64,000 bases of DNA. It comes from Methanofollis ethanolicus (lineage in GTDB: Archaea; Halobacteriota; Methanomicrobia; Methanomicrobiales; Methanofollaceae). This document shows, in pieces, positions 7,369 through 21,358 of the stretch; within the stretch, counting starts at the first letter, position 1, and every line of letters starts with the position of its first letter. The position numbers and the translations under genes were made by a program. The stretch lies in assembly GCF_001571385.1 (NCBI RefSeq), contig NZ_BCNW01000001.1, forward strand, positions 682,001 through 746,000, given 5' to 3'. The notes below the pieces were generated by a model. That model was not told where the DNA came from, did no database searches, and was given only the letters and a program-made list of their open reading frames with translations.

Positions 7369-10300
7369 ATGAGTACTCTTGATATTATCTCCTGGTCCGG
7401 TAAGAACTGCCGGAAATCTGTTTTTCCCGTCGTATCGCTGAGCCTCGTGCTTATCATTACAATCGCGCTCTGCGTCGTCCCTGCGTGGGCGGAGAACGTC
7501 TCCGGTGCGAACTTCTCCGGGATGGATGGGGAGGGAATGGACGCGATGTTCTCTCCTTCGAATGCCACGGCGCCTGGTGAAGACAATTCTACTGCGATAC
7601 CGGTCCAGCAAACGGTGGCGTGGGTCAATGTCACGCCGGCATCTGCCGAAATGACGGTGAACGACGTGCTGTCGTTTTCGGCAGCAGCATATGATTCCTC
7701 GGGGACGGTTGTTCCCGATGTTGTCTTCGCCTGGAACAGCAGCGATCCGTCTGTCGGGACGGTAAACCAGACCGGTTTGTTCACAGCGCTTGCTCCGGGA
7801 TCTGCGGTGATCACCGCTTCTGTCGCGAACAGCACCGTGAACGGGGCCGCAAACGTGACGGTGTCGGCACCCTTAATCCAAACTTCGCCGACGCCGGAGA
7901 ACGAAACAATCCCGAAATCCGTTCAATTCTCCTCTGTCGGTGCCAGTCCCGGAGGCGTGATCCCGGATACCAATAACGTATTTCTGAGAGTTTCGAATGA
8001 CGACGGCGCTCGGTTCGATGATTTCGGGAATAACACCTACAACATCAGGTGGACCGGCGATGCGTCCGAAATTCCGGCTAATGACGGAGGGCAAAACGCT
8101 CTGCACATCACCGACGATCTCTCGACCACTCAGAAGGTTACGTTTACGAATAATCTGGCGGGGACGTTCTGGGTCACCGACACGGGAGGACGTTACTACA
8201 AGGACGAGATATTGCTCCTCATTGCCGTCAACGGGACAATCCCGGACAATTTCAGGCTTCACCTGAAAGCCGACGGCTATCAGTGGGTTCCGAATCCGAC
8301 GCCGCATGCACCACCTGCACTGGAAGACATCACCTATGAAGCCGTGACCCTGGACGAATGGTTTACGAAGGACGACCTGATCTACGGTCCGCAGACCTGG
8401 CGACCTGCTGCGCATACGACGTATCCCCTGTACCCCGGACAGGACGTCACCAACACCTCCAACACCTTCCGGATGATGCTCGTTGATCTCAATGCCGGCG
8501 ACCGCTACGGCGTCCAGCCGGTCAGAGTTCAGTACGAGGTCGAGAACCTGAACTCTTTCATGGCTGTGAACGCCTATGCATACTCCAAGAACGCCGATGT
8601 CGGCGTATACAATATCACCTGCTGGACAAACCGCCTTCTTGGAAATCCCGGCGAGTTCAGCGGATATTATGTCTCCGGCGCCCCCCTCCCCCCTGCTGCA
8701 CGGGTAACGATCTCACCTGAATCCGCATCTGTTCCCGTCAACGGCAAGCAGACGTTTTCAGCAAGAGCATATGATGAAAACGGGGATGAGATCGTCGGTG
8801 CCCCCTTCACCTGGTCGAGCAGCGTTCCCGGCGTCGGCACGATCGGTACTGATGGTGTATTCTCACCGGCTTCCGAAGGATCGACGATCATCACCGCCTC
8901 AACAAACGGTGCCTCCGGCGAGGCTCAGGTTACGGTGACAGGACCTGTTGAAAAGGTTCTGACATCGATCACGATGGACCCGGCCTCGGTCGTGATGTAC
9001 ACGGACAATATCGGGAACCAGACTTTTGTTGCCAAAGGATACGACCAGTTCGGAGACGAGATCACTCCGTTGGCGTTCAGGTGGTCGAGCACCAATGAGA
9101 GTGTCGGGACGGTTGATTCGTCGGGCAGATTCTCGGGAATTTCAGCCGGAATTACAGATGTACAGGCACAAAACGGCACCGTAACCGGGACTGCGCAGGT
9201 CTTGATCAAACCGAACCCGGACTGGAACGTGACTCTGATCGGCGCGGTGAACGGAACCCTGAATCGTTCTACCATTATCGACCTGTCCCACGGGGGGCTT
9301 CTCTCCTATACCGACCCCAGCGGAAAACTGTGGGAAGGAGTCAACCTTTCGGCGATCATCGGCCTTGTCGATGACTCCGACCCTGCAACTTTCAACGCGT
9401 CGCTGGCATCCCGGGACTATAATATCACCGTCGTCGGCAAAGCAGCAGGCAATGATAAGACCGTCCTGATTACCGGTCGGGAACTTCTCGATGGTGATAC
9501 AACCTTTATTGCCGCCTATAAAGTGAACGGCTTCGAGATCCCCGAAGGGCCGATTGATGGAAGAACATACTGGCCGTTGAAATTGACGGGGTCGGGAATT
9601 GCACATGTGGGTAAGAATCTCGAAGAGATCACGGAGATCTCGCTTGAGTTCCCCCCTGATATCAGGAAGATAAACATCACACCCGATATTGTGAGGACAT
9701 GGGAAAGTGGTGAGCCTCTCCAGTTTGATGCCCGTGGATATGATGCATCAGGGACTGAGGTTCCTTTTGTTTCGTATACGTGGACGAGCAGCAATACCTC
9801 GGTCGGCACGGTAGATCAAACCGGGTATTTTACTCCCACCGGGTCGGGAACGACGACTGTTTGGGCGGACTTCCACGGGGTCAACGGCTCGGCGACAGTG
9901 TATGTTTATCCCGACAACCTTCCTCCCCATGCATGGATCGTTGATCAGATGGGCAACGGTGATTTCAGGACGATTACTGAAGCTATCGCCTGTGCACGGG
10001 ATGGCGACACTGTCCTTGTCAGGGATGGAGTCTATAATGAACTGTTTAAGCTCGAGAAGGGAATAACACTCAGATCAGAAAACGGCCCCTCGAATACGAC
10101 TATCACAAATGCTAACAGGGCCTTTATGATCGAGGTTCTGGCTGATAATGTCTCTATATCGGGTTTTACACTAAAACAGACCGGTTTTGCAACAATTGCA
10201 AGTAAAAATGCAATTCGAATCACGAAAGGCGACAACTGCACGATCTCAGGAAATATTTTCTCAGATACGCAGTATTGTATCTACGTCTATACAGGTCATG

Positions 10301-12588
10301 TAAGTTATATGACCATCGCCGGGAATAAATTCAACAGTCCGACAACGTCGATATATTTAACTACCTGTGACCATGCTGTTGTTAGAAACAATATCATTGA
10401 AGGAGGAAAAGATAATACAATCCTGGTTTATGGAAATGGAGACTCTCTTGGGAATATTGTGGAAAATAATACCATATCTTCTGATTCCATAGGGGGTGGA
10501 GGAATTGGCTATGCGAATAGTTTCGGAGGAAGAATCTCAAATAACACAATTTATAATGCGGGTCGAGGTCTGTATATTCGTGATGCACCTAACACCGTCG
10601 TCAGGGACAATATCATCGGTGAATGTACGGAATCGAATGTCTACTTAAGAGATTCAATAAAAAACATTACATTCACTGGGAATGAATTAAAAGGTGGCAA
10701 AACGGGAACTTTCTATCTCAATAGCATCAAAGATGGTGATTCTGCCAGCATTTATATGAACGACATCAGCACTCACCCTGCTAAACCCGGTAACTTTTTC
10801 TACTGTAAAAAATCATCTCCCCTCGCATTAAACTCCACGGAGCCGATCAGTTACGTCTACAACGGCACGACATACACCAACTTTGTTGGCAACTACTTTG
10901 CTAGCTATGCCGGCAACGACACCGACGGAGACGGTCTCGGCGACACGCCGTTTGTCGCCAGCGGCGTGAATCACTACCACCCCCTCGTCTCCCCGATCGA
11001 CAACTATCTCGTCCTCACCCCGACGACCATCACCGTCACGCCTGCGGCCGCGACCCTCGAGGCCGGGGAGAGCGTGAACTTCACGGCCGAGGTCTTCGAC
11101 CAGCGTGGGGAGACGATGCCCGGCGCCGTGCCTGTGTGGTCGAGCGGCAACACGACCCTCGGTGTCGTGAACGCCACCACCGGCCTCTTTGATGCCCTTT
11201 CGTCCGGGAACGTGACGGTCTCTGCAGTCTGCGACGGGTGCACGGGCTCTGCGGTCGTCACCGTTGTTCCGGCGACGAAGAAGACGGAGACGCTCTCCTT
11301 CGACGTGCCCAACTGCACCTTCTCTGAAAACAGCAGCGGGCATTCCATCTCGGTCAACGCGAGCGCCGCCAGCATCAACGGCAGCCGTCTCACCGTCCGG
11401 GGCAATGGGTTCAACCTGACCCTCAGGACCACGTCCGACCCCGTCACCGCGGGCGGCCAGGTCAACGCGACCTACGACGGCATGGTCCTGGAGACCGATC
11501 CCCTCGTTGCCGACCTCCCCCTGCCCGGCACAGTCTCGGGCAGCATCCGGGCCAACCTCACCGGCCTCCCTGCAGGGGCGGGCATCACGACCACCCTCAG
11601 CCAGAACATAACCGATGAAGTCATGTCCGCCTTCCAGCTCGCGGCGAGCGAGGACGGCCTGAACGTGGACGGGGTCGCCTTCACGATGAACATCCAGAAG
11701 ACGAACCTGACGAACGGCCAGGACGTCTCCGACGCCACGATCAGGATGACCGCGAGTCCGGCATGGGTCAACGCCCACGGCGGCGTCGGTGCGGTGCGGA
11801 TCATCAGGTGGGCCGAGGACGGCACGAAGGAAGTGCTGACGACGACCTATCTCGGCACCGACACCGGTGGCAACCTGGTCTTCGAGGCATATTCCCCGAA
11901 CGGCCTCTCGCTCTTCGGCCTGGCGGCGACCTCGACGCCGCCGAGCGGTTCGACCGTCTCTTCCCACTCTTCGTCCGGCGGCGGGAGTTCCGACGTCGCC
12001 GCAATCTCGGGCTCCATCCCTGCCGGGGAGACGAAGTCCTTTGCGGTGACGGAGACGGCGGTCACCAGGATCACGGTCGACGCCTATGACGCGATCGACG
12101 ACATGCTGGTGACGGTGCAGAAGGCCTCGCTCCCCAAGGACATAGCCGCACCCACGCAGACGACCTTCCAGGTCATCGAGACCACCCTGTACCGGGCCGA
12201 CCCGTCCGCCATCGACAGGGTGACCCTGGAGTTCGCGGTGCCGACGTCCTGGATCGAGGACCACGATCTTTCCACCGGCAACATCGTTCTCCTCGGCTAC
12301 GAGAACAATGGGTGGAAGGCCCTCACGACGACGTTCCTGAAGGAAGAGAACGGGCAGGCCCTGTATTCGGCCAGGGCCTCCGGCTTCTCGTACTTCGCGA
12401 TCGTTGCGGGCACGACCGCCTCGGCCGCTTCCCCGGTGCAGGCAGAAGAGACGACGATGCCGGCGGGTGAGGCGGTGCAGACCGCGTCCCCGTCACAGTC
12501 CGCCACGACCCTCCCCCAGAAGTCGCCCCTCCCGTGGGGACTCGCGATCCTCGCCTTCGGGGCGGTGTTCATGATGAGAAGACGATAA
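7369..12588 (+). CDS. Giant multidomain cell-surface protein (Ig-like, beta-helix, PGF-pre-PGF, C-terminal anchor)
   Basis: This 1739-residue exported protein has a signal peptide at about 18-42. A bacterial Ig-like (BIG2) domain at about 83-165 (VNVTPASAEMTV...GTVNQTGLFTA) is followed by a domain homologous to the upstream secreted protein (about 200-435). Two more BIG2 domains lie at about 445-615, then a stretch at about 615-755 resembling the sulfite-oxidase-type molybdopterin-binding fold (WEGVNLSAIIG), another BIG2, and a NosD-like parallel beta-helix (about 860-1200) ending in NDTDGDGLGDTPF. A fifth BIG2, a spacer and a PGF-pre-PGF domain (about 1520-1690, ending GFSYFAIV) precede a C-terminal hydrophobic segment followed by MRRR. 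The internal beta-helix part (about 10.0-10.85 kb) is more AT-rich than the rest, hinting at domain shuffling. It is probably an S-layer-associated adhesin or carbohydrate-binding protein; the function is unknown. Confidence 0.85.
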   Translation: MSTLDIISWSGKNCRKSVFPVVSLSLVLIITIALCVVPAWAENVSGANFSGMDGEGMDAMFSPSNATAPGEDNSTAIPVQQTVAWVNVTPASAEMTVNDVLSFSAAAYDSSGTVVPDVVFAWNSSDPSVGTVNQTGLFTALAPGSAVITASVANSTVNGAANVTVSAPLIQTSPTPENETIPKSVQFSSVGASPGGVIPDTNNVFLRVSNDDGARFDDFGNNTYNIRWTGDASEIPANDGGQNALHITDDLSTTQKVTFTNNLAGTFWVTDTGGRYYKDEILLLIAVNGTIPDNFRLHLKADGYQWVPNPTPHAPPALEDITYEAVTLDEWFTKDDLIYGPQTWRPAAHTTYPLYPGQDVTNTSNTFRMMLVDLNAGDRYGVQPVRVQYEVENLNSFMAVNAYAYSKNADVGVYNITCWTNRLLGNPGEFSGYYVSGAPLPPAARVTISPESASVPVNGKQTFSARAYDENGDEIVGAPFTWSSSVPGVGTIGTDGVFSPASEGSTIITASTNGASGEAQVTVTGPVEKVLTSITMDPASVVMYTDNIGNQTFVAKGYDQFGDEITPLAFRWSSTNESVGTVDSSGRFSGISAGITDVQAQNGTVTGTAQVLIKPNPDWNVTLIGAVNGTLNRSTIIDLSHGGLLSYTDPSGKLWEGVNLSAIIGLVDDSDPATFNASLASRDYNITVVGKAAGNDKTVLITGRELLDGDTTFIAAYKVNGFEIPEGPIDGRTYWPLKLTGSGIAHVGKNLEEITEISLEFPPDIRKINITPDIVRTWESGEPLQFDARGYDASGTEVPFVSYTWTSSNTSVGTVDQTGYFTPTGSGTTTVWADFHGVNGSATVYVYPDNLPPHAWIVDQMGNGDFRTITEAIACARDGDTVLVRDGVYNELFKLEKGITLRSENGPSNTTITNANRAFMIEVLADNVSISGFTLKQTGFATIASKNAIRITKGDNCTISGNIFSDTQYCIYVYTGHVSYMTIAGNKFNSPTTSIYLTTCDHAVVRNNIIEGGKDNTILVYGNGDSLGNIVENNTISSDSIGGGGIGYANSFGGRISNNTIYNAGRGLYIRDAPNTVVRDNIIGECTESNVYLRDSIKNITFTGNELKGGKTGTFYLNSIKDGDSASIYMNDISTHPAKPGNFFYCKKSSPLALNSTEPISYVYNGTTYTNFVGNYFASYAGNDTDGDGLGDTPFVASGVNHYHPLVSPIDNYLVLTPTTITVTPAAATLEAGESVNFTAEVFDQRGETMPGAVPVWSSGNTTLGVVNATTGLFDALSSGNVTVSAVCDGCTGSAVVTVVPATKKTETLSFDVPNCTFSENSSGHSISVNASAASINGSRLTVRGNGFNLTLRTTSDPVTAGGQVNATYDGMVLETDPLVADLPLPGTVSGSIRANLTGLPAGAGITTTLSQNITDEVMSAFQLAASEDGLNVDGVAFTMNIQKTNLTNGQDVSDATIRMTASPAWVNAHGGVGAVRIIRWAEDGTKEVLTTTYLGTDTGGNLVFEAYSPNGLSLFGLAATSTPPSGSTVSSHSSSGGGSSDVAAISGSIPAGETKSFAVTETAVTRITVDAYDAIDDMLVTVQKASLPKDIAAPTQTTFQVIETTLYRADPSAIDRVTLEFAVPTSWIEDHDLSTGNIVLLGYENNGWKALTTTFLKEENGQALYSARASGFSYFAIVAGTTASAASPVQAEETTMPAGEAVQTASPSQSATTLPQKSPLPWGLAILAFGAVFMMRRR

Positions 12589-12870: not shown

Positions 12871-13836
12871 ATGATCACGCTGACTCCCGCAGATGCGAAG
12901 AAACGCTTCGGGCCGCTCTTTGCAGAGAAGTTCATCGTCATGGTGGACGAGCAGGCCGGCATGGCCGAGATCCTGGAGACCTGCCGTCACCGCGGCACGA
13001 TCGAGTGGGACATGATGAACAGGCGGCGCGCCTGCGGCGCCCTCTCCTCCGCGGAGGTGCAGGGGTCTTCGATGACGATGCTCGCCCGCCTCGGGAGGTA
13101 CGAGGCGAACTTCGGAGCGGCCGGCCAGGAGATCGGCGGCCAGGCCCTGGAGGGTGTCGAGGTGCAGGGTGACGAGGTCGTCACCTCCTGGGCAGGGATC
13201 GCCGGTGCCGGTGTCGGCGTCGCCGCCTGCCTCCCGCAGGCGCCCGGCGTGATCAGGGCCGAGTACCCGACCGAGGAGGACCTCCACATCGGCGGGGCGA
13301 GGGTCTGCCGGGTGCGGATCGTCACGCCGAAGTACGAGAAACTGACCATCGGGATCGACGACACCGACACGAAGCAGGAGGGCGCCACCTGGGTGCTCGC
13401 CCTGAAGTGTGCCGAGGCATGCAAAGTTCCGGGAGCAGAGTACCTTAATATGCGCCTCGTGCAGCTCAACCCGAAGGCCCCGAAGAAGACGACGAACTGC
13501 GTCGGTTCGGTGCTGAACTTCGCCGTGAGGCCGGGATCGGTCGAGCCCCTCCTCGCCTTTGTGAAGGAGTACATCGAGGAGCACGCGGTCTCGGGCGACA
13601 CCGGGATCGCCTACTACCGCGGGCTCTGTCTCCCGGGGTCCGACTACGTGAAGAAGATCAAGACCGAACTCATCTCCCGCGAGGAGGTGGAGGCCGAGGC
13701 AAAGCGTATCGGCGTCACCTTCATCGACTCCGCGGCGAGCAAGGGACGGATCGGTGCATTCGGTGCGGTGCTCTGGGGCAACCGCGGCGTGGAGGCAGCA
13801 GGTCTCTATGGAGAACAACCGGGCGGCAGGGTCTGA
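12871..13836 (+). CDS. IDDTDT-motif protein, tandem paralogue of methanogenesis marker 11
   Basis: This 321-residue protein has the IGIDDTDTKQEGATW motif at about 160-174, found in methanogenesis marker 11 proteins and in the kinase domain of the tRNA agmatinylcytidine synthase TiaS. It aligns through its length with the next gene: GDEVVTSWAGIAGAGVGVAAC versus GDEIAVTYLGMGGGGVGASAC, a shared VQLxP...TxNCV strand, a shared SGDTGIAYY/SDETGMAAY and a shared C-terminal G-x-IGA. I chose ATG 12871 (preceded by GGTG at 6 bases) over 12829, whose extra 14 residues look unrelated. It is first gene of the coenzyme B operon and overlaps its paralogue by 29 bases. The exact reaction is unknown. The IDDTD family relation suggests ATP-dependent phosphotransfer (inference). 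Confidence 0.8.
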   Translation: MITLTPADAKKRFGPLFAEKFIVMVDEQAGMAEILETCRHRGTIEWDMMNRRRACGALSSAEVQGSSMTMLARLGRYEANFGAAGQEIGGQALEGVEVQGDEVVTSWAGIAGAGVGVAACLPQAPGVIRAEYPTEEDLHIGGARVCRVRIVTPKYEKLTIGIDDTDTKQEGATWVLALKCAEACKVPGAEYLNMRLVQLNPKAPKKTTNCVGSVLNFAVRPGSVEPLLAFVKEYIEEHAVSGDTGIAYYRGLCLPGSDYVKKIKTELISREEVEAEAKRIGVTFIDSAASKGRIGAFGAVLWGNRGVEAAGLYGEQPGGRV

Positions 13837-14716
13837 GGGGCTCAAAGACCCCTACGTGGTGGCGTACCCCCTGATCGCGGCGGTCGCCGACGGCGAGGGC
13901 AGCCGGATCGAACTGGTCGAGTTCTTCGACTGCCTGGGCGGGGCCCACTGGGTCCGCCGCCACTATGCACAGAGCCCCCTCGTCGTCTCCGCCCGGACAG
14001 TGGGGGCGACGACGCGGTACGTCCTCAGGGCCGGGTGCGTCTCCCTCCCCCTGGAGGGCTCCCGCTTCCCGGCGGGGATCGCGGGCGCCGCGGTGGAGGG
14101 CGACGAGATCGCGGTCACATATCTTGGCATGGGCGGCGGCGGCGTCGGGGCCTCGGCCTGCCGCGCCCGCGGCGGCGGGGTGATCCGGGCGTCGTGCGAC
14201 GAGTCCGGCGGCGGCAGACTGGCCGGGTCGACGGTCTGGCTGCCGAGGCGCGAGCGGGTGGTCATCGGCGTCGACGACACCGACACCCCCGAGGATGGGG
14301 CGACCTGGACCCTCGTCCACAACATTGCGAAGGCGGTCGCCGACGACTCCTCGGTGTACCTCTCCCACACGATCGTCCAGCTCTACCCTGTGCCGGAGAG
14401 GACGAAAAACTGCGTCGCCTGTGCGGTGGAGTTCGCGTCGTCCGACCCGGACGGGCTTATCGAGCGGTTTGCCGCCCTGCTCGGCCGCCACACCCTCTCC
14501 GACGAGACGGGGATGGCGGCGTACGTCGGCTTCGACCCGTCGCCCCTGCGGGCATACGGCGAGGCGGTGAAGAGGGGGAAGGTTGCCTGGGCCGATCTCG
14601 AAGCCGTCCTCGGCGAGGTCAGGGTCGTGATGGGCGGTCACGGCCTCATCGGTGCGGTGGCGGCGATCCCCTTCTACACGGACTACGGGGAGGCGACGTC
14701 CTTATGGACCGGCTGA
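13808..14716 (+). CDS. Methanogenesis marker protein 11 (IDDTDT-motif)
   Basis: The 302-residue protein matches the methanogenesis marker 11 family (TIGR03280 as I recall it): an N-terminal DPYVVAY segment, GSRFPAGI at 85-91, a glycine-rich TYLGMGGGGVGAS stretch around 104-116, and the IGVDDTDTPEDGATW motif at about 153-167. Marker 11 is found across methanogens but has no established reaction. The motif relates it to the Thr/cytidine kinase domain of TiaS. The start at ATG 13808 has GGAGG about 10 bases upstream and overlaps the preceding paralogue by 29 bases; the radical SAM gene overlaps its end by 13 bases. Embedding in a coenzyme B operon suggests a role in that pathway, possibly threonine-hydroxyl phosphorylation (inference). 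Confidence 0.85.
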   Translation: MENNRAAGSEGLKDPYVVAYPLIAAVADGEGSRIELVEFFDCLGGAHWVRRHYAQSPLVVSARTVGATTRYVLRAGCVSLPLEGSRFPAGIAGAAVEGDEIAVTYLGMGGGGVGASACRARGGGVIRASCDESGGGRLAGSTVWLPRRERVVIGVDDTDTPEDGATWTLVHNIAKAVADDSSVYLSHTIVQLYPVPERTKNCVACAVEFASSDPDGLIERFAALLGRHTLSDETGMAAYVGFDPSPLRAYGEAVKRGKVAWADLEAVLGEVRVVMGGHGLIGAVAAIPFYTDYGEATSLWTG

Positions 14717-15669
14717 GGCTGAAGGCCGCACTCCTTGCCGCAGGAAAGGTGAAGGTCGCGGGCGTCCCCCCCGGCCCGTACCTCTCCTCCTCCACCGCGG
14801 GACCCGGCGCCGGCGGCGAGGGTTCTGTCTTTTTTTCTGTCGACGGCATGAGAGTCCGTCTTTCGGTGGACCCCCATGCCGACCTCGTCCTCATCCATGA
14901 GGGGAAGGGGAACGCGACCCTTCCTTTCCACGGGGAGATGGTCAGGGGCGTCCTCGAAGTGCCGGGCTTCCACTGCCCGCGGCAGGCCTTCATCACCCTC
15001 ACCGCGTCCTGTATCTTCTCCTGCCTGTACTGTGCCGTCCCCGGCCGGGTTGGGCGGACGAAGAGCACGGAGGAGGTCGTGGCGATGGTCAGGTCTGTCA
15101 TCGGGAGGATCGACGCGATCTCCCTGACGAGCGGCGTGGCCGGGAGTATCGAGGAGGAGGAGAGACGCGCCCTCGATGCGGTGCGGGCGCTTGTCCCCTT
15201 CGATCTGCCCATCGGTGTCTCCATCTACCCGACGCGTAACTCCCCCCGTCTCCTGAGGGAGGCAGGGGCCGCGGAGGTGAAGTTCAACATCGAGGCGGCG
15301 ACGCCCGGCCTCTTTGCGGAGATGTGCCCAGGCCTCGAGTGGAACCTCGTCTGGGAGGTGCTCGAGGAGTCGGTGCGCCTCTTCGGGAAGAACCACGTCC
15401 AGAGCAACATCATCGTTGGCCTGGGGGAGAGCGATGAGGAGATGGCGGCGGCCGTCAGGAGACTCTGCTCCCTCGGGGTGATCCCTGTCCTCAGGCCCCT
15501 CACCCCGTCGGCGGGCCTCGCGCACTTCCCGCGCCCGTCGGCAGAGCGTCTGCTCAAGCTGCATGCGGTCGCACGGGAGGAGATGGTGGCGGCCGGGCTC
15601 GACGCGAGAGAGGCATTGACGATGTGTGCGGCATGCATGGGCTGCGACCTCGTACCCGGGAGGGACTGA
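14704..15669 (+). CDS. Radical SAM protein of the coenzyme B operon
   Basis: This 321-residue protein carries the radical SAM CxxxCxxC motif at C103-C107-C110 (SCIFSCLYCAVPG), which binds a [4Fe-4S] cluster that cleaves S-adenosylmethionine. About 80 residues precede the motif, more than in minimal radical SAM enzymes. The C-terminus ends with C308-C311-C314 (CAACMGC), likely ligands of a second cluster. It contains YPTRNSPRLLREAGAAEVKFN and a GLGE strand (about 240) typical of the partial TIM barrel. I do not recognise a named subfamily, and it is shorter than Mmp10. It overlaps marker 11 by 13 bases and lies 2 bases before the thiamine-diphosphate gene, so cotranscription is certain. Its reaction is unknown. 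Confidence 0.85.
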   Translation: MDRLRLKAALLAAGKVKVAGVPPGPYLSSSTAGPGAGGEGSVFFSVDGMRVRLSVDPHADLVLIHEGKGNATLPFHGEMVRGVLEVPGFHCPRQAFITLTASCIFSCLYCAVPGRVGRTKSTEEVVAMVRSVIGRIDAISLTSGVAGSIEEEERRALDAVRALVPFDLPIGVSIYPTRNSPRLLREAGAAEVKFNIEAATPGLFAEMCPGLEWNLVWEVLEESVRLFGKNHVQSNIIVGLGESDEEMAAAVRRLCSLGVIPVLRPLTPSAGLAHFPRPSAERLLKLHAVAREEMVAAGLDAREALTMCAACMGCDLVPGRD

Positions 15670-15671
15670 AA

Positions 15672-16817
15672 ATGGACGGGGAGGAGGTGCTGGCTCTCGC
15701 CCTTTCCGGTGCGGCCGACGCCCTGTACACGGTGCCCGGCTATCCCGTGACCGGGTGCGCGACGCGGACCCGCGCGGAGGTCTGCACGAACGAGAAGGTC
15801 GCCCTGGAGTACGCCTTCGGTGACTCCCTCCTCGGCAGGCGGGCCGCGGTGGTCGTGAAGCACGTCGGCATGAACCTCCTCGCCGACCCCCTGGTGCAGG
15901 CGACGGCCCAGGGTATTGTGGGGGGCGTCGTCGTCGTGGCCGGGGACGACCCTCTCGCCCGCGCCTCGCAAGTCGGGGAGGACTCCCGCCATTTCGGACC
16001 CCTGGCGATGGTGCCGGTCGTCGAGGCCGACGGGCCCGAAGCCCTCCCTGCCGCGGTGGAGGAGGCCTTCGCCCTCTCGGAGGCGATGGCGCGGGTGTGC
16101 GTCCTCCGCGTCACTCCCGAGATCCTCGACGCACCGGCAGCGGCCCGACCCGCTCTCCGCGGTGCGAGGGGTGCGGGCACCCTCGCCGACCCCGCGCTGA
16201 CGATGCGGGGCAGGTGGGAGAGGGCCCTCCAGGTAACGGCGGCACATACCGGCCATCAGGCCCCGGAAGGTGTTATGGTCACAATCCCGCAGGTCTCTCC
16301 CCCGGCAGGGGAACCCGAAAGATTCTCCGACCGGGGGTTCTGCCGGACCTTCTGCCGGCACTGCCCGTACCGTCCGCTCGTCTCCCTCCTTGCCGAACGG
16401 GGGATGCGGCCGGTGGTCGATGCCGGGTGTTCCCTCCTTGCGACAAACCCGCCGTACAGGATCGGCGTTGCGAGTTATGGCCTCGGGTCCGCGGTGGCGG
16501 TGGGGGCAAAAAGCACGGGTGTCGCCCTGATAGGGGATTACGGCATCCTGCACTCCGGCATAAATGCACTGATCGACGTCTATGAGAAGGGCCTGCCCCT
16601 CCTCTGTATCGTCCTTGAGAACAGGCGCATGGGCATGGTCGGCGGCCAGGAGGTTGCCGGAGTGGAGAAGTACCTCGACTGGGCCAGACCGGTCATATGC
16701 CGCGCCGACGACCTGGCCGGACTGGCGCGGCTGATCGTGCCTGCCGACAGGCCGACGACGGTGATCGTCACCGGGGCATGCCCCGAAGGAGAGAGTCATG
16801 AAAAAGTGGAATGTTGA
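15672..16817 (+). CDS. IorA-like thiamine-diphosphate enzyme without ferredoxin domain; candidate 2-oxosuberate decarboxylase
   Basis: The 381-residue protein has the two thiamine-diphosphate-enzyme domains of indolepyruvate:ferredoxin oxidoreductase alpha (IorA). The pyrimidine-binding half contains NEKVALEYAFG (40-50) and KHVGMNLLADPL (63-74). The pyrophosphate half contains FCRTFCRHCPYRP (223-234) and the metal/diphosphate motif GDY...N at 288-317 (IGDYGILHSG...VLENRRMGM). IorA normally runs to about 600 residues and ends with a two-cluster ferredoxin domain. That domain is absent here, and no iorB lies nearby. This points to a nonoxidative 2-oxoacid decarboxylase rather than an oxidoreductase. 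It overlaps aksA by 20 bases, so its 2-oxoacid substrate is plausibly 2-oxosuberate, to be decarboxylated to 7-oxoheptanoate for coenzyme B (inference). Confidence 0.85.
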   Translation: MDGEEVLALALSGAADALYTVPGYPVTGCATRTRAEVCTNEKVALEYAFGDSLLGRRAAVVVKHVGMNLLADPLVQATAQGIVGGVVVVAGDDPLARASQVGEDSRHFGPLAMVPVVEADGPEALPAAVEEAFALSEAMARVCVLRVTPEILDAPAAARPALRGARGAGTLADPALTMRGRWERALQVTAAHTGHQAPEGVMVTIPQVSPPAGEPERFSDRGFCRTFCRHCPYRPLVSLLAERGMRPVVDAGCSLLATNPPYRIGVASYGLGSAVAVGAKSTGVALIGDYGILHSGINALIDVYEKGLPLLCIVLENRRMGMVGGQEVAGVEKYLDWARPVICRADDLAGLARLIVPADRPTTVIVTGACPEGESHEKVEC

Positions 16818-17925
16818 GATATGCGACGTCACGCTCCGTGACGGCGAACAGACGCCGGGTGTATCGTTTGCCTGCGACGAGAAGAAGGAGATAGCGGGAA
16901 TCCTCGATGCCACCGGTGTCGAGGTGATCGAGGCCGGTTTCCCTGCCGTCTCGGCGAACGAGAAGAAGGCGGTCAGGGAGATCTGCGGGATGGGCCTCGA
17001 CGCCCGGATCTGCGCACTCGCACGGGCGAAACAGTACGACATCGACGCCGCGCTCGACTGCGGCGTGGAGATGATCGGCGTCTTTGCGGCCACCTCCGAC
17101 CTCCATATCCGGACGAAGTACGGCAAGACCCGCGAGGAAGTCCTTGCCGAGACCTGCGCGATGATCGAGTACGCCCATGACCACGGCGTCACCGTCAGGT
17201 TCGGCGCCGAAGACGCGTCCCGGACTCCTCTCCCCGTCCTTATCGAGGCGTACAGGCAGGCGGCCGATGCCGGCGCCGACCTCGTTACCTTTGCCGACAC
17301 CGTCGGGTGCATGACACCCTCGGAGACCGGGGAGAGGGTGCGCGAGATCGCGGCCGCCATCGACACCCCCCTCTGCATCCACTGCCACGACGACCTCGGG
17401 TGCGCCACCGCAAACACCGTCACCGCCGCCGCGGAAGGCGCTTTTCAACTCCACACCACGGTGAACGGACTCGGCGAGAGGGCCGGGAACGCCGCCCTCG
17501 AGGAGGTGCTCGTCGTCCTGGCCATGAAGGCCGGGATCAGCAGGTACGACCTCTCCCACCTCAAGAGACTCTCCGATCGGGTCGAGAAGGCTTCGGGGAT
17601 CGCGGTCGCAAAGAACAAGGCGGTCGTGGGTGCCCATGCCTTCGCGCACGAGAGCGGCATCCATATCGCCGCGATCCTCAGGGAACCGGAGACCTACGAA
17701 TACGTTCGCCCCTCTCTTGTGGGCGCGTCAAGGACGTTCATTCTCGGCAAACACACCGGGAAACACGCGATCGAGCATGTCGCCGTCTCTCTCGGCTACG
17801 ACCTCGACGATGCCGGGGTCTCCTGGGTGCTCGCCGAGGTGAAGAGGCGGAGCGAGGCGAAGTGCACGGTGACGCCCGAAGTCCTCCAGGAGATCCTCTG
17901 CGCCGCGCGGAAGGGGGCGGTCTGA
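16798..17925 (+). CDS. aksA: (R)-homocitrate/homo2-3citrate synthase family, coenzyme B pathway
   Basis: AksA condenses 2-oxoglutarate and its chain-extended homologues with acetyl-CoA during 2-oxosuberate synthesis. The 375-residue protein has the family signature DVTLRDGEQTPGV at 10-22 (catalytic R14, D15, E17), the metal-binding H195-x-H197 (IHCHDDLGCA), and the GLGERAGNA motif near 225. Sequence alone cannot fully exclude isopropylmalate or citramalate synthase. The short form without a C-terminal leucine-sensing regulatory domain, and the neighbouring homoaconitase and dehydrogenase genes, favour AksA. The ATG lies inside the end of the thiamine-diphosphate gene, and the stop codon overlaps the aksD start (TGATG). 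Confidence 0.9.
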   Translation: MKKWNVEICDVTLRDGEQTPGVSFACDEKKEIAGILDATGVEVIEAGFPAVSANEKKAVREICGMGLDARICALARAKQYDIDAALDCGVEMIGVFAATSDLHIRTKYGKTREEVLAETCAMIEYAHDHGVTVRFGAEDASRTPLPVLIEAYRQAADAGADLVTFADTVGCMTPSETGERVREIAAAIDTPLCIHCHDDLGCATANTVTAAAEGAFQLHTTVNGLGERAGNAALEEVLVVLAMKAGISRYDLSHLKRLSDRVEKASGIAVAKNKAVVGAHAFAHESGIHIAAILREPETYEYVRPSLVGASRTFILGKHTGKHAIEHVAVSLGYDLDDAGVSWVLAEVKRRSEAKCTVTPEVLQEILCAARKGAV

Positions 17926-19136
17926 TGGCCACCCTTGCCGAGGAGATCCTGGGGGCGCCTGCCGGGGAATACGTCGACCGCCGGGTGGACCGGGCCTATG
18001 CCCATGACGGCACCGGCGTCCTTGCACGGGAGGCCTGGCTCTCGATCAGGACCGGGGCCTTCCCCGATCCCGAACGCCGGTATCTCATCTTCGACCACAT
18101 CGTCCCGGCCAACACCTCCTTGACCGCAGACCTCCAGAAGGAACTGCGGACTTTCGCCCGGCAGCGGGGGATGCACCTCTCCGACGTCGGCGGCGGCGTC
18201 TGCCACCAGGTGATGGCCGAGGGGTATGCCCTCCCCGGCGAGGTGATCGTCGGGGCGGACTCGCACTCCTGCACTCTCGGGGCCTTCGGCGCCTTTGCGA
18301 CAGGCGTCGGGGCGACGGACATGGCCGGCATCTGGGCGACAGGCGAGACCTGGTTCAGGGTGCCGGAGACGACCGGCGTCTTCCTTGATGGCGCCCTGAC
18401 CGGTGCGGCCGCGGCAAAGGACGTCGCCCTCGCCTATGTCGCCGCCCTTGGGATGGACGGCGCGACCTACCGCGCCCTGGAGTTTGTCGGTGAGGGGGCG
18501 TCGGGGCTATCGATGGTAGACCGCCTCACCCTCTCCAACATGGCGGTGGAGACAGGAGCGAAGGCTGGAATGTTCTATGCCGATGCGGTGACGCGGGAGT
18601 ACCTCGCCGGTTTTGGCCATGCGGTGGAGGCGCAGACTCCAGCGGCCGGATACCCAGATGAGATCACCCTCGACCTCGGGAATATCGAGCCCCTCCTTGC
18701 CCTGCCACCGCGGGTGGACACGGTCTGCCCGGTGACAGAGAGGGAGGGCCTGACCGTGGACCAGGTCTTCCTGGGCACCTGCACCTGCGGGCGGTACGAG
18801 GACCTGGAGGCCTTCGCCCGTATCGTGCGCGGCAAGAAAGTGGCGGTCAGGACCGTCGTCGTCCCGGCGTCCCGTGCCGTCCTTGCCCGTGCGGCCGCGA
18901 CGGGGGTGCTCTCCACCCTCATCGAGGCCGGGTGCGCCGTCGGGACGCCCGGGTGCGGCCCCTGTCTCGGCGCCCACATGGGCGTGATCGGAGAGGGGGA
19001 GGTCTGCCTCTCGACCGCGAACAGGAACTTCAGGAACAGGATGGGCGTGGGCGGCGAGATCTACCTGGCCTCTCCCCTGACCGCGGCGGCGACCGCTCTT
19101 GCCGGAGAGATCCGGTCTCCGGAGGAATGCCTGTGA
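17925..19136 (+). CDS. aksD: Homoaconitase large subunit
   Basis: This is the aconitase-superfamily large subunit that isomerises homocitrate and its longer homologues with AksE. The 403-residue protein has the substrate motif ADSHSCTLGA at 111-120 and iron-sulfur ligands consistent with the HacA/LeuC2 family: GTCTCGRYEDL (C288) and GTPGCGPCLG (C344, C347). It is a little shorter than the usual 415-420 residues, mainly at the N-terminus. ATG overlaps the aksA stop by one base and its own stop overlaps aksE by 10 bases. Specificity is assigned with the help of AksE, whose YLRT loop marks homoaconitase rather than isopropylmalate isomerase. Confidence 0.9.
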   Translation: MATLAEEILGAPAGEYVDRRVDRAYAHDGTGVLAREAWLSIRTGAFPDPERRYLIFDHIVPANTSLTADLQKELRTFARQRGMHLSDVGGGVCHQVMAEGYALPGEVIVGADSHSCTLGAFGAFATGVGATDMAGIWATGETWFRVPETTGVFLDGALTGAAAAKDVALAYVAALGMDGATYRALEFVGEGASGLSMVDRLTLSNMAVETGAKAGMFYADAVTREYLAGFGHAVEAQTPAAGYPDEITLDLGNIEPLLALPPRVDTVCPVTEREGLTVDQVFLGTCTCGRYEDLEAFARIVRGKKVAVRTVVVPASRAVLARAAATGVLSTLIEAGCAVGTPGCGPCLGAHMGVIGEGEVCLSTANRNFRNRMGVGGEIYLASPLTAAATALAGEIRSPEECL

Positions 19137-19606
19137 AGGGCGACGGGCGTGCCCTCTGCCTCGGGCGGGACATCGATACAGACCTCGTCATAGCGGGGCG
19201 GTACCTGCGGACGAAGGACCGGTCTGTCTGGGCGGCCCATGTCTTCGAGGATCTCGACTCCACCCTTGCCGGGCGCCTTGCCGGTGCGGTGATCGTCGCG
19301 GGCCCGAATTTCGGCTGCGGGTCGTCGCGGGAGCAGGCGGCGGTCGCCCTGAAGGAGGCTGGAGTCGTCGCGGTCGCCGCCCCGACCTTTGCCAGAATCT
19401 TCTTCAGGAACGCCGTCAATATAGGTCTCCTGGTGCTTGAGTGCGAGATCCCCTGCCATGAGGGCGAGGCTATACGCTTCGATCTCGATGAGGGCTGGAT
19501 AGAGGCCGGCGGGACCCGCCGCCCTCTCCGTCCCCTCTCCCCGCGGATGCGGGAGGTCCTCAGGTCGGGAGGTCTTGTCCCCTATCTCAGCGGAGGCCAT
19601 GGATGA
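19127..19606 (+). CDS. aksE: Homoaconitase small subunit
   Basis: The 159-residue swivelling-domain subunit pairs with AksD. It contains CLGRDIDTDLVIAGRYLRT with YLRT at 26-29. In methanogens that loop distinguishes homoaconitase (YLRT) from isopropylmalate isomerase (YLVM-like), the Arg contacting the distal carboxylate of longer substrates. The catalytic NFGCGSSREQA motif follows at 61-71. I chose ATG 19127, seven bases before the aksD stop and preceded by GGAGGA; other frames further upstream are not homologous. It ends overlapping the next gene by 4 bases. Confidence 0.93.
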   Translation: MPVKGDGRALCLGRDIDTDLVIAGRYLRTKDRSVWAAHVFEDLDSTLAGRLAGAVIVAGPNFGCGSSREQAAVALKEAGVVAVAAPTFARIFFRNAVNIGLLVLECEIPCHEGEAIRFDLDEGWIEAGGTRRPLRPLSPRMREVLRSGGLVPYLSGGHG

Positions 19607-20421
19607 TATTTCCTGAAGAGTGCAAATACGTGGGCCTTGCGAATACGAGGCCCCTCGGGGAGAAGGTCTATTTCCTCTCCCGCTGGCTGATCCGGGAGAC
19701 CCCCGAAGGCTACGAGATCCTGTCGGTGAAACTTGCCGATGGAGAGGGACTGATGCGTGATGTCACGGCGACATGGGTGCTTGCGAAGCCCGACGAGACA
19801 TATCTGTATCCCGAACCGGTGAACTTCAATGACAGGTCGCGCCTGATCAGCCTTGCGGCGGCCTCGGGGTATCGGTGCACCATTTTCAGGAGCCCTGACG
19901 AGTCACGGACCTTCGTCCTCGACCCTGACCAGGGGTCGCTCCTGACCGTGCACGTCTACGACATCATTCCGCCGCGCCCCCACCTTGCGGCGATCCTGGA
20001 GGAACTCGAGGGTGTCGGTCTTTTCGGCGACCTCGGCGTCCGTTTCGAGTATCATATCAGGGACATCAGGGAGACGGAGGCGGAGGTCTATCCCTGCCGT
20101 GCCGGCGGCTTTGACCGGACCCTCGATGCCGACCCTCTTGCCGGGAAGGAGCATGTGGCCGGATGCCTCACGGCGCAGCAGTTCTGTGCGGAGAACTACG
20201 GGGACGAGGTGGAGATCGCTGAGATCTGCCCCCTGACGCAGGTCGCGGAGGAGCCTTTTATCGCCCGGTGCTGTCGGGGGGAGCGCGAGGGTGTCGGGGA
20301 GTGGAACGGAAAGTTCGGCGGCGTGGTCCACTGGGGTGCGGCGCCCCACACCATCGACGCGGTCCTCAGGGGTGCGGTGGCCGGGTGGCGGGAGCATGAA
20401 GGTAGCGGTCGTCCCCGGTGA
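19603..20421 (+). CDS. Conserved methanogen protein of unknown function inside the coenzyme B operon
   Basis: This 272-residue soluble protein begins MIFPEECKYVGLANTRPLG. It has no recognised catalytic motif, signal peptide or membrane segment. It contains three cysteines near the C-terminal half in a CPLTQVAEEPFIARCCRG region and a conserved-looking NGKFGGVVHWGA segment near residue 240. It resembles what I recall being listed as DUF7714 in Methanomicrobiales, but I am not sure. It is locked into the operon by a 4-base overlap with aksE and a 26-base overlap with aksF. The context implies a job in 2-oxoacid elongation or in a later coenzyme B step; no function is claimed. Confidence 0.8.
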   Translation: MIFPEECKYVGLANTRPLGEKVYFLSRWLIRETPEGYEILSVKLADGEGLMRDVTATWVLAKPDETYLYPEPVNFNDRSRLISLAAASGYRCTIFRSPDESRTFVLDPDQGSLLTVHVYDIIPPRPHLAAILEELEGVGLFGDLGVRFEYHIRDIRETEAEVYPCRAGGFDRTLDADPLAGKEHVAGCLTAQQFCAENYGDEVEIAEICPLTQVAEEPFIARCCRGEREGVGEWNGKFGGVVHWGAAPHTIDAVLRGAVAGWREHEGSGRPR

Positions 20422-21358
20422 CGGGATCGGGCAGGAGGTGGTCCCGGTGGCCGAGGCGGTTCTCCGCCGCCTCCATCCTGACTGGGACTACTACCCTGTC
20501 GAGGTCGGGTACGGCCGCTGGCAGAGGTGCGGTTCGGCCATCGGTCCCGAGGAGATGCGGGCCCTCGGGGAGGCCGATGCCATCCTCTTCGGTGCGGTGA
20601 CCACGCCTCCCGACCCTGCCTACCGGAGTGTGCTCGTGCAGATGAGGAAGGATCTCGACCTGTATGCGAATGTGCGGCCGGTGAAGGGACCGGGCGTCGA
20701 CCTCACGATCGTGCGGGAGAACACCGAAGGGCTGTACTCAGGGATCGAGTGGGAATTGCCCGGCTCGTACTGCACCCTCCGGGTCGTCACCGAGAAGGGG
20801 AGCCGACGAATTGCACGCTTCGCCGCCGGGCTTGCGAAAGGCAGGCGGTTCACCATCGGGACAAAGGCGAATGTCCTCAAGTCCGACACACTCTTCCGCC
20901 GCTGTGCCGTCGAGGAGGCGGAGGCCGCGGGGGTGGCATGGGAGGAGACGTTCATCGACGCCCTCTGCCTTGACGTGCTGATGCACCCGGCCCGCTACGG
21001 CGTCATCGTGACGACGAACATCTTCGGCGACATCCTTTCCGACGCCGTGGGGGCGCTTGTCGGCGGCCTCGGCACCCTCCCTTCGGCGAACATCGGCGAT
21101 GGCCACGCCCTCTTCGAACCTGTCCACGGTTCGGCCCCTGACATAGCGGGGAAGGGCATCGCAAACCCGGTGGCGGCGATACGGAGCGCCGCGATGCTCC
21201 TCGCCCATGCAGGCGACCGGGAAGGGGCGGCCGCGGTGGATGCGACGGTGGACGCCGTCCTTGCCGCGGGCATCCGGACCCCTGACCTCGGCGGCACGGC
21301 CTCGACCGGGCGGTTCGGTGCAGCGGTGGTCGGTCGGATCAGGGATTGGATGCCCTGA
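20396..21358 (+). CDS. aksF: Isocitrate/homoisocitrate-type dehydrogenase of coenzyme B synthesis
   Basis: AksF oxidatively decarboxylates homoisocitrate and longer homologues with NAD(P)+. The 320-residue protein begins MKVAVVPGDGIGQEVVP (nucleotide and substrate motif) and contains VRENTEGLYSGIEW near 102-115. The Lys-Asn segment GTKANVLKSDTLFRR, a metal-binding DALCLD, TTNIFGDILSDAVGALVGGLG and EPVHGSAPDIAGKGIANP are the full family set. ATG 20396 has GGGAG about 3 bases upstream and lies within the preceding gene. LeuB (isopropylmalate dehydrogenase) belongs to the same family; the operon partners decide for AksF. It is the last gene of the operon, followed by a T-run. Confidence 0.88.
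   Translation: MKVAVVPGDGIGQEVVPVAEAVLRRLHPDWDYYPVEVGYGRWQRCGSAIGPEEMRALGEADAILFGAVTTPPDPAYRSVLVQMRKDLDLYANVRPVKGPGVDLTIVRENTEGLYSGIEWELPGSYCTLRVVTEKGSRRIARFAAGLAKGRRFTIGTKANVLKSDTLFRRCAVEEAEAAGVAWEETFIDALCLDVLMHPARYGVIVTTNIFGDILSDAVGALVGGLGTLPSANIGDGHALFEPVHGSAPDIAGKGIANPVAAIRSAAMLLAHAGDREGAAAVDATVDAVLAAGIRTPDLGGTASTGRFGAAVVGRIRDWMP

Follow-up and report, generated by a model that had tools for sequence, protein, structure and literature searches.

How coenzyme B receives its phosphate, and whether the two adjacent genes that open a coenzyme B operon do the same work, are questions raised by a locus in the 2.7 Mb genome of Methanofollis ethanolicus, lying in the window analysed here (a stretch of 64,000 nucleotides, positions 682,001 to 746,000 of contig NZ_BCNW01000001.1). 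Coenzyme B is consumed for each methane made by methyl-coenzyme M reductase, and the late steps of its synthesis, the final kinase included, are without assigned genes (PMC10384328, PMC12068725). The last reaction, ATP:7-mercaptoheptanoylthreonine 3-phosphotransferase, is present in KEGG with the late enzymes given as unknown (PMC10384328), and a paper from 2025 still calls the pathway unknown (PMC12068725). Literature searches on methanogenesis marker 11 and on a coenzyme B kinase gene found nothing.

The two genes, A (12871–13836, + strand, 321 residues) and B (13808–14716, + strand, 302 residues), overlap by 29 bp and encode proteins with 33% identity over 224 aligned columns (BLASTP, E=1e-24); IGIDDTDT is found at residues 160-167 of A and IGVDDTDT in B, the motifs of the DDTD region being IGIDDTDTKQEGATW and IGVDDTDTPEDGATW, respectively. 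Coordinates, BLASTP and motifs thus all agree with an earlier note on this DNA, which had described adjacent, overlapping homologues both carrying IGxDDTDT. The same note had termed both proteins marker-11 paralogues, which is right for B, a member of TIGR03280 (methanogenesis marker 11) at 317.9 bits against a curated cut-off of 255.8 bits, but not for A, which can be aligned to this profile over almost its full length, as can B, but scores only 203.3 bits and belongs to another clade. In a tree of 73 sequences the A clade, the support for which is moderate (68/91), also includes Methanocellales-like, Methanomassiliicoccales and one ANME-1-like sequence, the B clade comprising the remaining sampled methanogens and the Archaeoglobi. 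Since both clades also hold distant methanogens, the duplication predates the order Methanomicrobiales, and a recent tandem duplication is ruled out. The recognition of A and B as old, separable lineages is new in the present analysis.

Both proteins have an N-terminal domain of ~150 residues followed by a TiaS-type kinase domain, which matches the Pfam family TiaS_TCKD (PF22641) at 59.6 bits in A and 42.7 bits in B (cut-off 27). A phmmer search of the PDB with the single B sequence gave no match, so that profiles were needed; with profiles of A and B, good scores (E 1e-19 to 1e-13) were given by structures of TiaS alone, i.e. the tRNA(Ile2) 2-agmatinylcytidine synthetase (PDB 3AMT, 3AMU, 3AU7, 4RVZ, 5XOB and 3U02). 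The AlphaFold models (pLDDT 92.9 for A and 90.5 for B) match TiaS structures over ~150 residues, the TiaS-ATP complex included (prob 1.00 for the A model), and a comparison with the TiaS kinase domain, which the earlier note had proposed as a check, therefore bears out, together with the profiles, a TiaS-like kinase core. The likeness extends from the fold to the DDTD motif, the K/R-T and G.IGA positions and the residue aligned with TiaS Thr18, which we take to be the autophosphorylated residue of TiaS; it is Thr in B (Thr166 here), and Thr (Thr173 here) or, in many Methanomassiliicoccales, Ser in A. In 97 A and 80 B sequences there is no or almost no variation at the positions DDTD, Q-L, T, N-C, S and G.IGA. 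Given the predicted fold and the genomic context, the earlier suggestion that A and B are kinases appears well founded.

By contrast with the kinase domain, the agmatine- and tRNA-binding domains of TiaS are unaligned, the alignment being limited to the first ~150 TiaS residues (1 to about 151), and in place of those domains A and B carry an N-terminal domain of their own. Neither has the full TiaS architecture represented by the equivalog model NF040849, with which A scores 29.7 bits versus a cut-off of 600 and for which B is not listed. Because the kinase domain alone aligns, and the genome encodes a separate TiaS (L004), a role of A or B as tRNA agmatidine synthetase is ruled out. Because TiaS, which phosphorylates C34 of its tRNA and its own Thr18, acts on a carbonyl oxygen in addition to a hydroxyl, A and B may have an acceptor other than a hydroxyl. 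A dual kinase activity of TiaS, on RNA and protein, is cited in PMC11938285. This genome also encodes two small proteins (L005 and L006, ~234 and ~231 residues) with a DDTDN/DDTN-type motif and a weak or sub-threshold match to the TiaS kinase domain.

The operon comprises nine overlapping or abutting genes in the order A-B-rSAM-TPP-aksA-aksD-aksE-DUF7714-aksF (12871-21358, + strand throughout). B is followed by a radical SAM protein (rSAM, 14704–15669), which is weakly LipS2/MSMEG_0568-like, and by a thiamine-diphosphate (TPP) enzyme (15672–16817), a candidate 2-oxosuberate decarboxylase. Profile matches identify the AksA-type homocitrate synthase family protein (16798–17925), the AksD-type large (17925–19136) and AksE-type small (19127–19606) homoaconitase subunits and, beyond a DUF7714 protein (19603–20421; PF24830, 288.9 bits) with weak likeness to the coenzyme M-related XcbA family, the AksF-type homoisocitrate dehydrogenase (20396–21358). 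The operon proteins are, gene by gene, 85-95% identical to those of an uncultured Methanofollis (L109), and the operon is conserved across the Methanomicrobiales. Linkage to aks genes occurs in more than one order: in Methanocellales-like genomes (f14) B, rSAM, TPP and aks genes are clustered, and in one Methanobacteriaceae genome (L176) ~3 kb lie between B and aksDEF. The view that A and B head a coenzyme B operon is upheld by this conservation, and by the pruning of the operon in a coenzyme-B-requiring species (see below).

Several further features of the region may be mentioned. The rSAM protein is the most widely conserved partner of B (L045, L050-L052, L054, L068 and L069), including in Archaeoglobi-like genomes lacking AksA, where MSMEG_0568 is its highest-scoring family (231 bits; cut-off 303.7). 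The TPP enzyme, the candidate 2-oxosuberate decarboxylase, follows B in the Methanosarcinales and is lost with aks genes in gut genomes. In Methanogenium cariaci JCM 10550 (L128) the entire operon is apparently frameshifted in several genes, probably through sequencing error. Upstream of the operon in the window (7369-12588) is a gene for a 1739-residue protein whose sequence, on visual inspection, suggests secretion, several Ig-like segments in succession and a region of parallel-helix-like repeats.

A connection of the family with threonine, also proposed in the earlier note, finds backing in relatives of A and B that lie in operons for an ACT-domain protein and homoserine dehydrogenase. A third paralogue in this genome (L003, 1447-3538, - strand; TIGR03280 102.9 bits; further loci of this kind are L039, L099, L100 and L101) resembles A and B in its two marker-11 domains and DDTDS motif, but differs in its fusion to a winged-helix domain and in its linkage to homoserine dehydrogenase: the gene is the last of an operon that also encodes homoserine dehydrogenase and an ACT-domain-like protein, and all four genomes compared, that of Methanomicrobium mobile among them, share this operon. 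Another genome (G052) has a cluster ACT-homoserine dehydrogenase-rSAM-B-MtxX, so that the A/B family has two links to threonine or homoserine that do not depend on the aks genes. A canonical homoserine kinase, ThrB, was considered as well and gave no match above cut-off in this genome. The L003-type protein may be a homoserine kinase that carries its own regulatory domain, or else a sensor of threonine.

Natural deletions separate A from B, AksA and A having been searched for in all 232 Methanomicrobiales genomes and the other operon genes in subsets. M. mobile needs exogenous coenzyme B, according to PMC10658910, which cites Kuhner 1991. In M. mobile BP (G376; locus contig NZ_JOMF01000006.1) AksA is absent, and in this and two related rumen genomes the locus is reduced to A and DUF7714, which are adjacent, with B, rSAM, the TPP enzyme and AksA not found anywhere in the three genomes. 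A goat-gut Methanocorpusculum (L121 = G318) and G316 are likewise pruned to A plus DUF7714, while in G317, G312 and G319 DUF7714 is located elsewhere in the genome; altogether ten genomes, i.e. M. mobile and nine others, keep A without B, rSAM, TPP enzyme or AksA. A second gut set (G218, G307, G309, G326 and probably G323 and G325) retains A, B, rSAM and DUF7714, with the TPP enzyme and AksA absent. Every deleted genome at least 79% complete has mcrA, G323 excepted. Homocitrate synthase, homoaconitase and homoisocitrate genes are reported to be more frequent in environmental than in host-associated Methanocorpusculum (PMC10035134). Across 24 genomes B and rSAM occur together without exception (both present in 14, both absent in 10), the presence of rSAM being identical to that of B, and A is kept in all ten of those without B. 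In these ten, A is under strong purifying selection (dN/dS 0.05-0.09 for seven pairs). Retention of A under external coenzyme B supply, with B travelling with rSAM, is new in the present analysis. Since each gene is commonly present without the other, an obligate A/B heterodimer, as the earlier note had entertained, is ruled out; it had also treated the pair as having one function, but the genomes separate them.

The reverse loss also occurs: A is absent from 45 of 135 complete Methanomicrobiales genomes, many of which have B and AksA, and in G213 A is frameshifted, with B and aks present. A is thus dispensable for de novo synthesis and retained where coenzyme B has an external source. On the premise that supply of the product leads first to the loss of upstream steps, we infer an order that begins with Aks and the TPP enzyme, continues with B and rSAM and ends with A and DUF7714. 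This succession is imperfect, in that Methanocorpusculum petauri (G136, L120) has AksA elsewhere in its genome but no TPP enzyme, and A and DUF7714 could have been retained for some other reason. The neighbours of A in M. mobile include no evident transporter and, by eye, resemble formyltransferase and heterodisulfide reductase genes. Six more genomes without AksA, B and A (G308, G324, G339, G304 and G375, 70-86% complete, and G402, 94%) look like gaps or whole-operon losses and are uninformative on A, the families of G304 (g4) and G402 (g3) being without A in general. Many deleted genomes are MAGs. Apparent aks loss may be a contig-end artefact (e.g. G344, G357), and the argument is therefore built on junctions that are closed, on recurrence of the deletions in relatives and on M. 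mobile, which is an isolate.

Outside the Methanomicrobiales, Archaeoglobi-like genomes have B and rSAM, with AksA absent and mcrA mostly absent, so that marker 11 is not strictly methanogen-specific, as had been assumed. ANME-1-like and Methanoliparia-like genomes (labels inferred, as are others of this kind, from gene content) have mcrA, but lack B and AksA and, in nearly all cases, A, one ANME-1-like MAG (L070) having A. Neither A nor B is thus universal alongside methyl-coenzyme M reductase, and a role in modification of this enzyme alone is disfavoured, B being present without mcrA, although B adjoins ycaO-tfuA-type genes in f7 genomes and in G127. B and AksA are both lost in M. mobile and some Methanocorpusculum, and B occurs without AksA in Archaeoglobi and pruned gut genomes; Archaeoglobi-like genomes may have a different route to a coenzyme-B-type cofactor. 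The phosphotransacylase-like methanogenesis marker Mmp4/MtxX adjoins A-type genes in L070, L078, L079, L129 and L152, and a B-type gene in L052.

The explanation that we favour, at about an even chance, is that A and B are both coenzyme B kinases, B being biosynthetic and A late-acting or for salvage. As two ancient and distinct members of the TiaS-kinase-domain family, with homology, fold, conserved catalytic positions and operon linkage established by the analysis, they would be ATP-dependent kinases of coenzyme B metabolism, probably transferring phosphate to a threonine hydroxyl but dividing the substrates between them. B, coupled to the radical SAM protein, would act in de novo synthesis, with either threonine or the 7-mercaptoheptanoyl-threonine amide receiving the phosphate; A would act last and would also be required for salvage, its substrate most likely being N-(7-mercaptoheptanoyl)threonine, the form of coenzyme B that is imported without its phosphate. 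A phosphorylated cofactor usually loses its phosphate for uptake and regains it within the cell, and a late or salvage kinase is thus the simplest function for A; it is proposed that coenzyme-B-requiring methanogens keep A because it phosphorylates the imported dephospho-coenzyme B. The ordered pruning of the operon and the purifying selection on A are observations in support of this proposal. M. mobile could, by contrast, import coenzyme B intact, which would count against a salvage kinase. Other points against the favoured explanation are B and rSAM in AksA-less, mostly mcrA-less Archaeoglobi, the ANME-1-like and Methanoliparia-like genomes that have mcrA but lack B and, nearly all, A, the six genomes without A, B and AksA, and the use by TiaS of a carbonyl oxygen as one of its acceptors.

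It may be that B alone acts in coenzyme B synthesis, A having some other methanogenesis-related function, being merely located in the operon and being kept in auxotrophs since they are still methanogenic. Such a division would fit the location of A beside Mmp4/MtxX, rather than aks genes, in Methanocellales-like genomes, one ANME-1-like genome and two MAGs, the lack of any tested operon gene within reach of the A-type genes of Methanomassiliicoccales, and the resemblance of DUF7714, retained with A, to a coenzyme M-related family. However, most A-containing Methanomicrobiales have A at the head of the coenzyme B operon and one third of complete Methanomicrobiales are methanogenic without it, and we consider this division of roles unlikely.

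The chemistry of TiaS, which activates a carbonyl for attack by an amine, suggests by analogy that A and B might instead be acyl- or carbonyl-activating enzymes, phosphorylating the carboxylate of a 7-mercaptoheptanoate precursor for amide formation with threonine (phosphate), and the location of A or B beside the phosphotransacylase-like (PTA_PTB) MtxX in several genomes would be in keeping with this. That M. mobile, which is supplied with the finished amide, keeps A, and that relatives linked to homoserine dehydrogenase suggest a hydroxy amino acid, make such activation rather improbable. The distribution of B with rSAM in Archaeoglobi that lack AksA and often mcrA, and of mcrA in B-less ANME-1-like and Methanoliparia-like genomes, would also be accommodated if the family makes phosphorylated products outside coenzyme B, e.g. 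another cofactor of the Archaeoglobi, or is no longer a kinase at all, an unrelated kinase phosphorylating coenzyme B; other archaeal threonine kinases do exist, such as the CobD-type enzyme of Methanosarcina mazei. The conserved linkage to the aks operon, the proximity to aks genes in the Methanobacteriaceae genome and the loss of B along with aks genes in a methanogen with a proven requirement for coenzyme B argue against this, and it seems improbable.

Returning to A and B as coenzyme B kinases, the natural deletions split A from B, suggest a step order and leave two small candidate proteins that can be assayed. It is possible, but doubtful, that gut methanogens supplied with coenzyme B by their neighbours keep A as a kinase dedicated to salvage, and that B and rSAM form a late coenzyme B module which, in non-methanogenic Archaeoglobi too, is active in the absence of the Aks route, there for a coenzyme-B-type cofactor. 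If A is a salvage kinase, its presence would aid in recognising methanogens that depend on others for coenzyme B.
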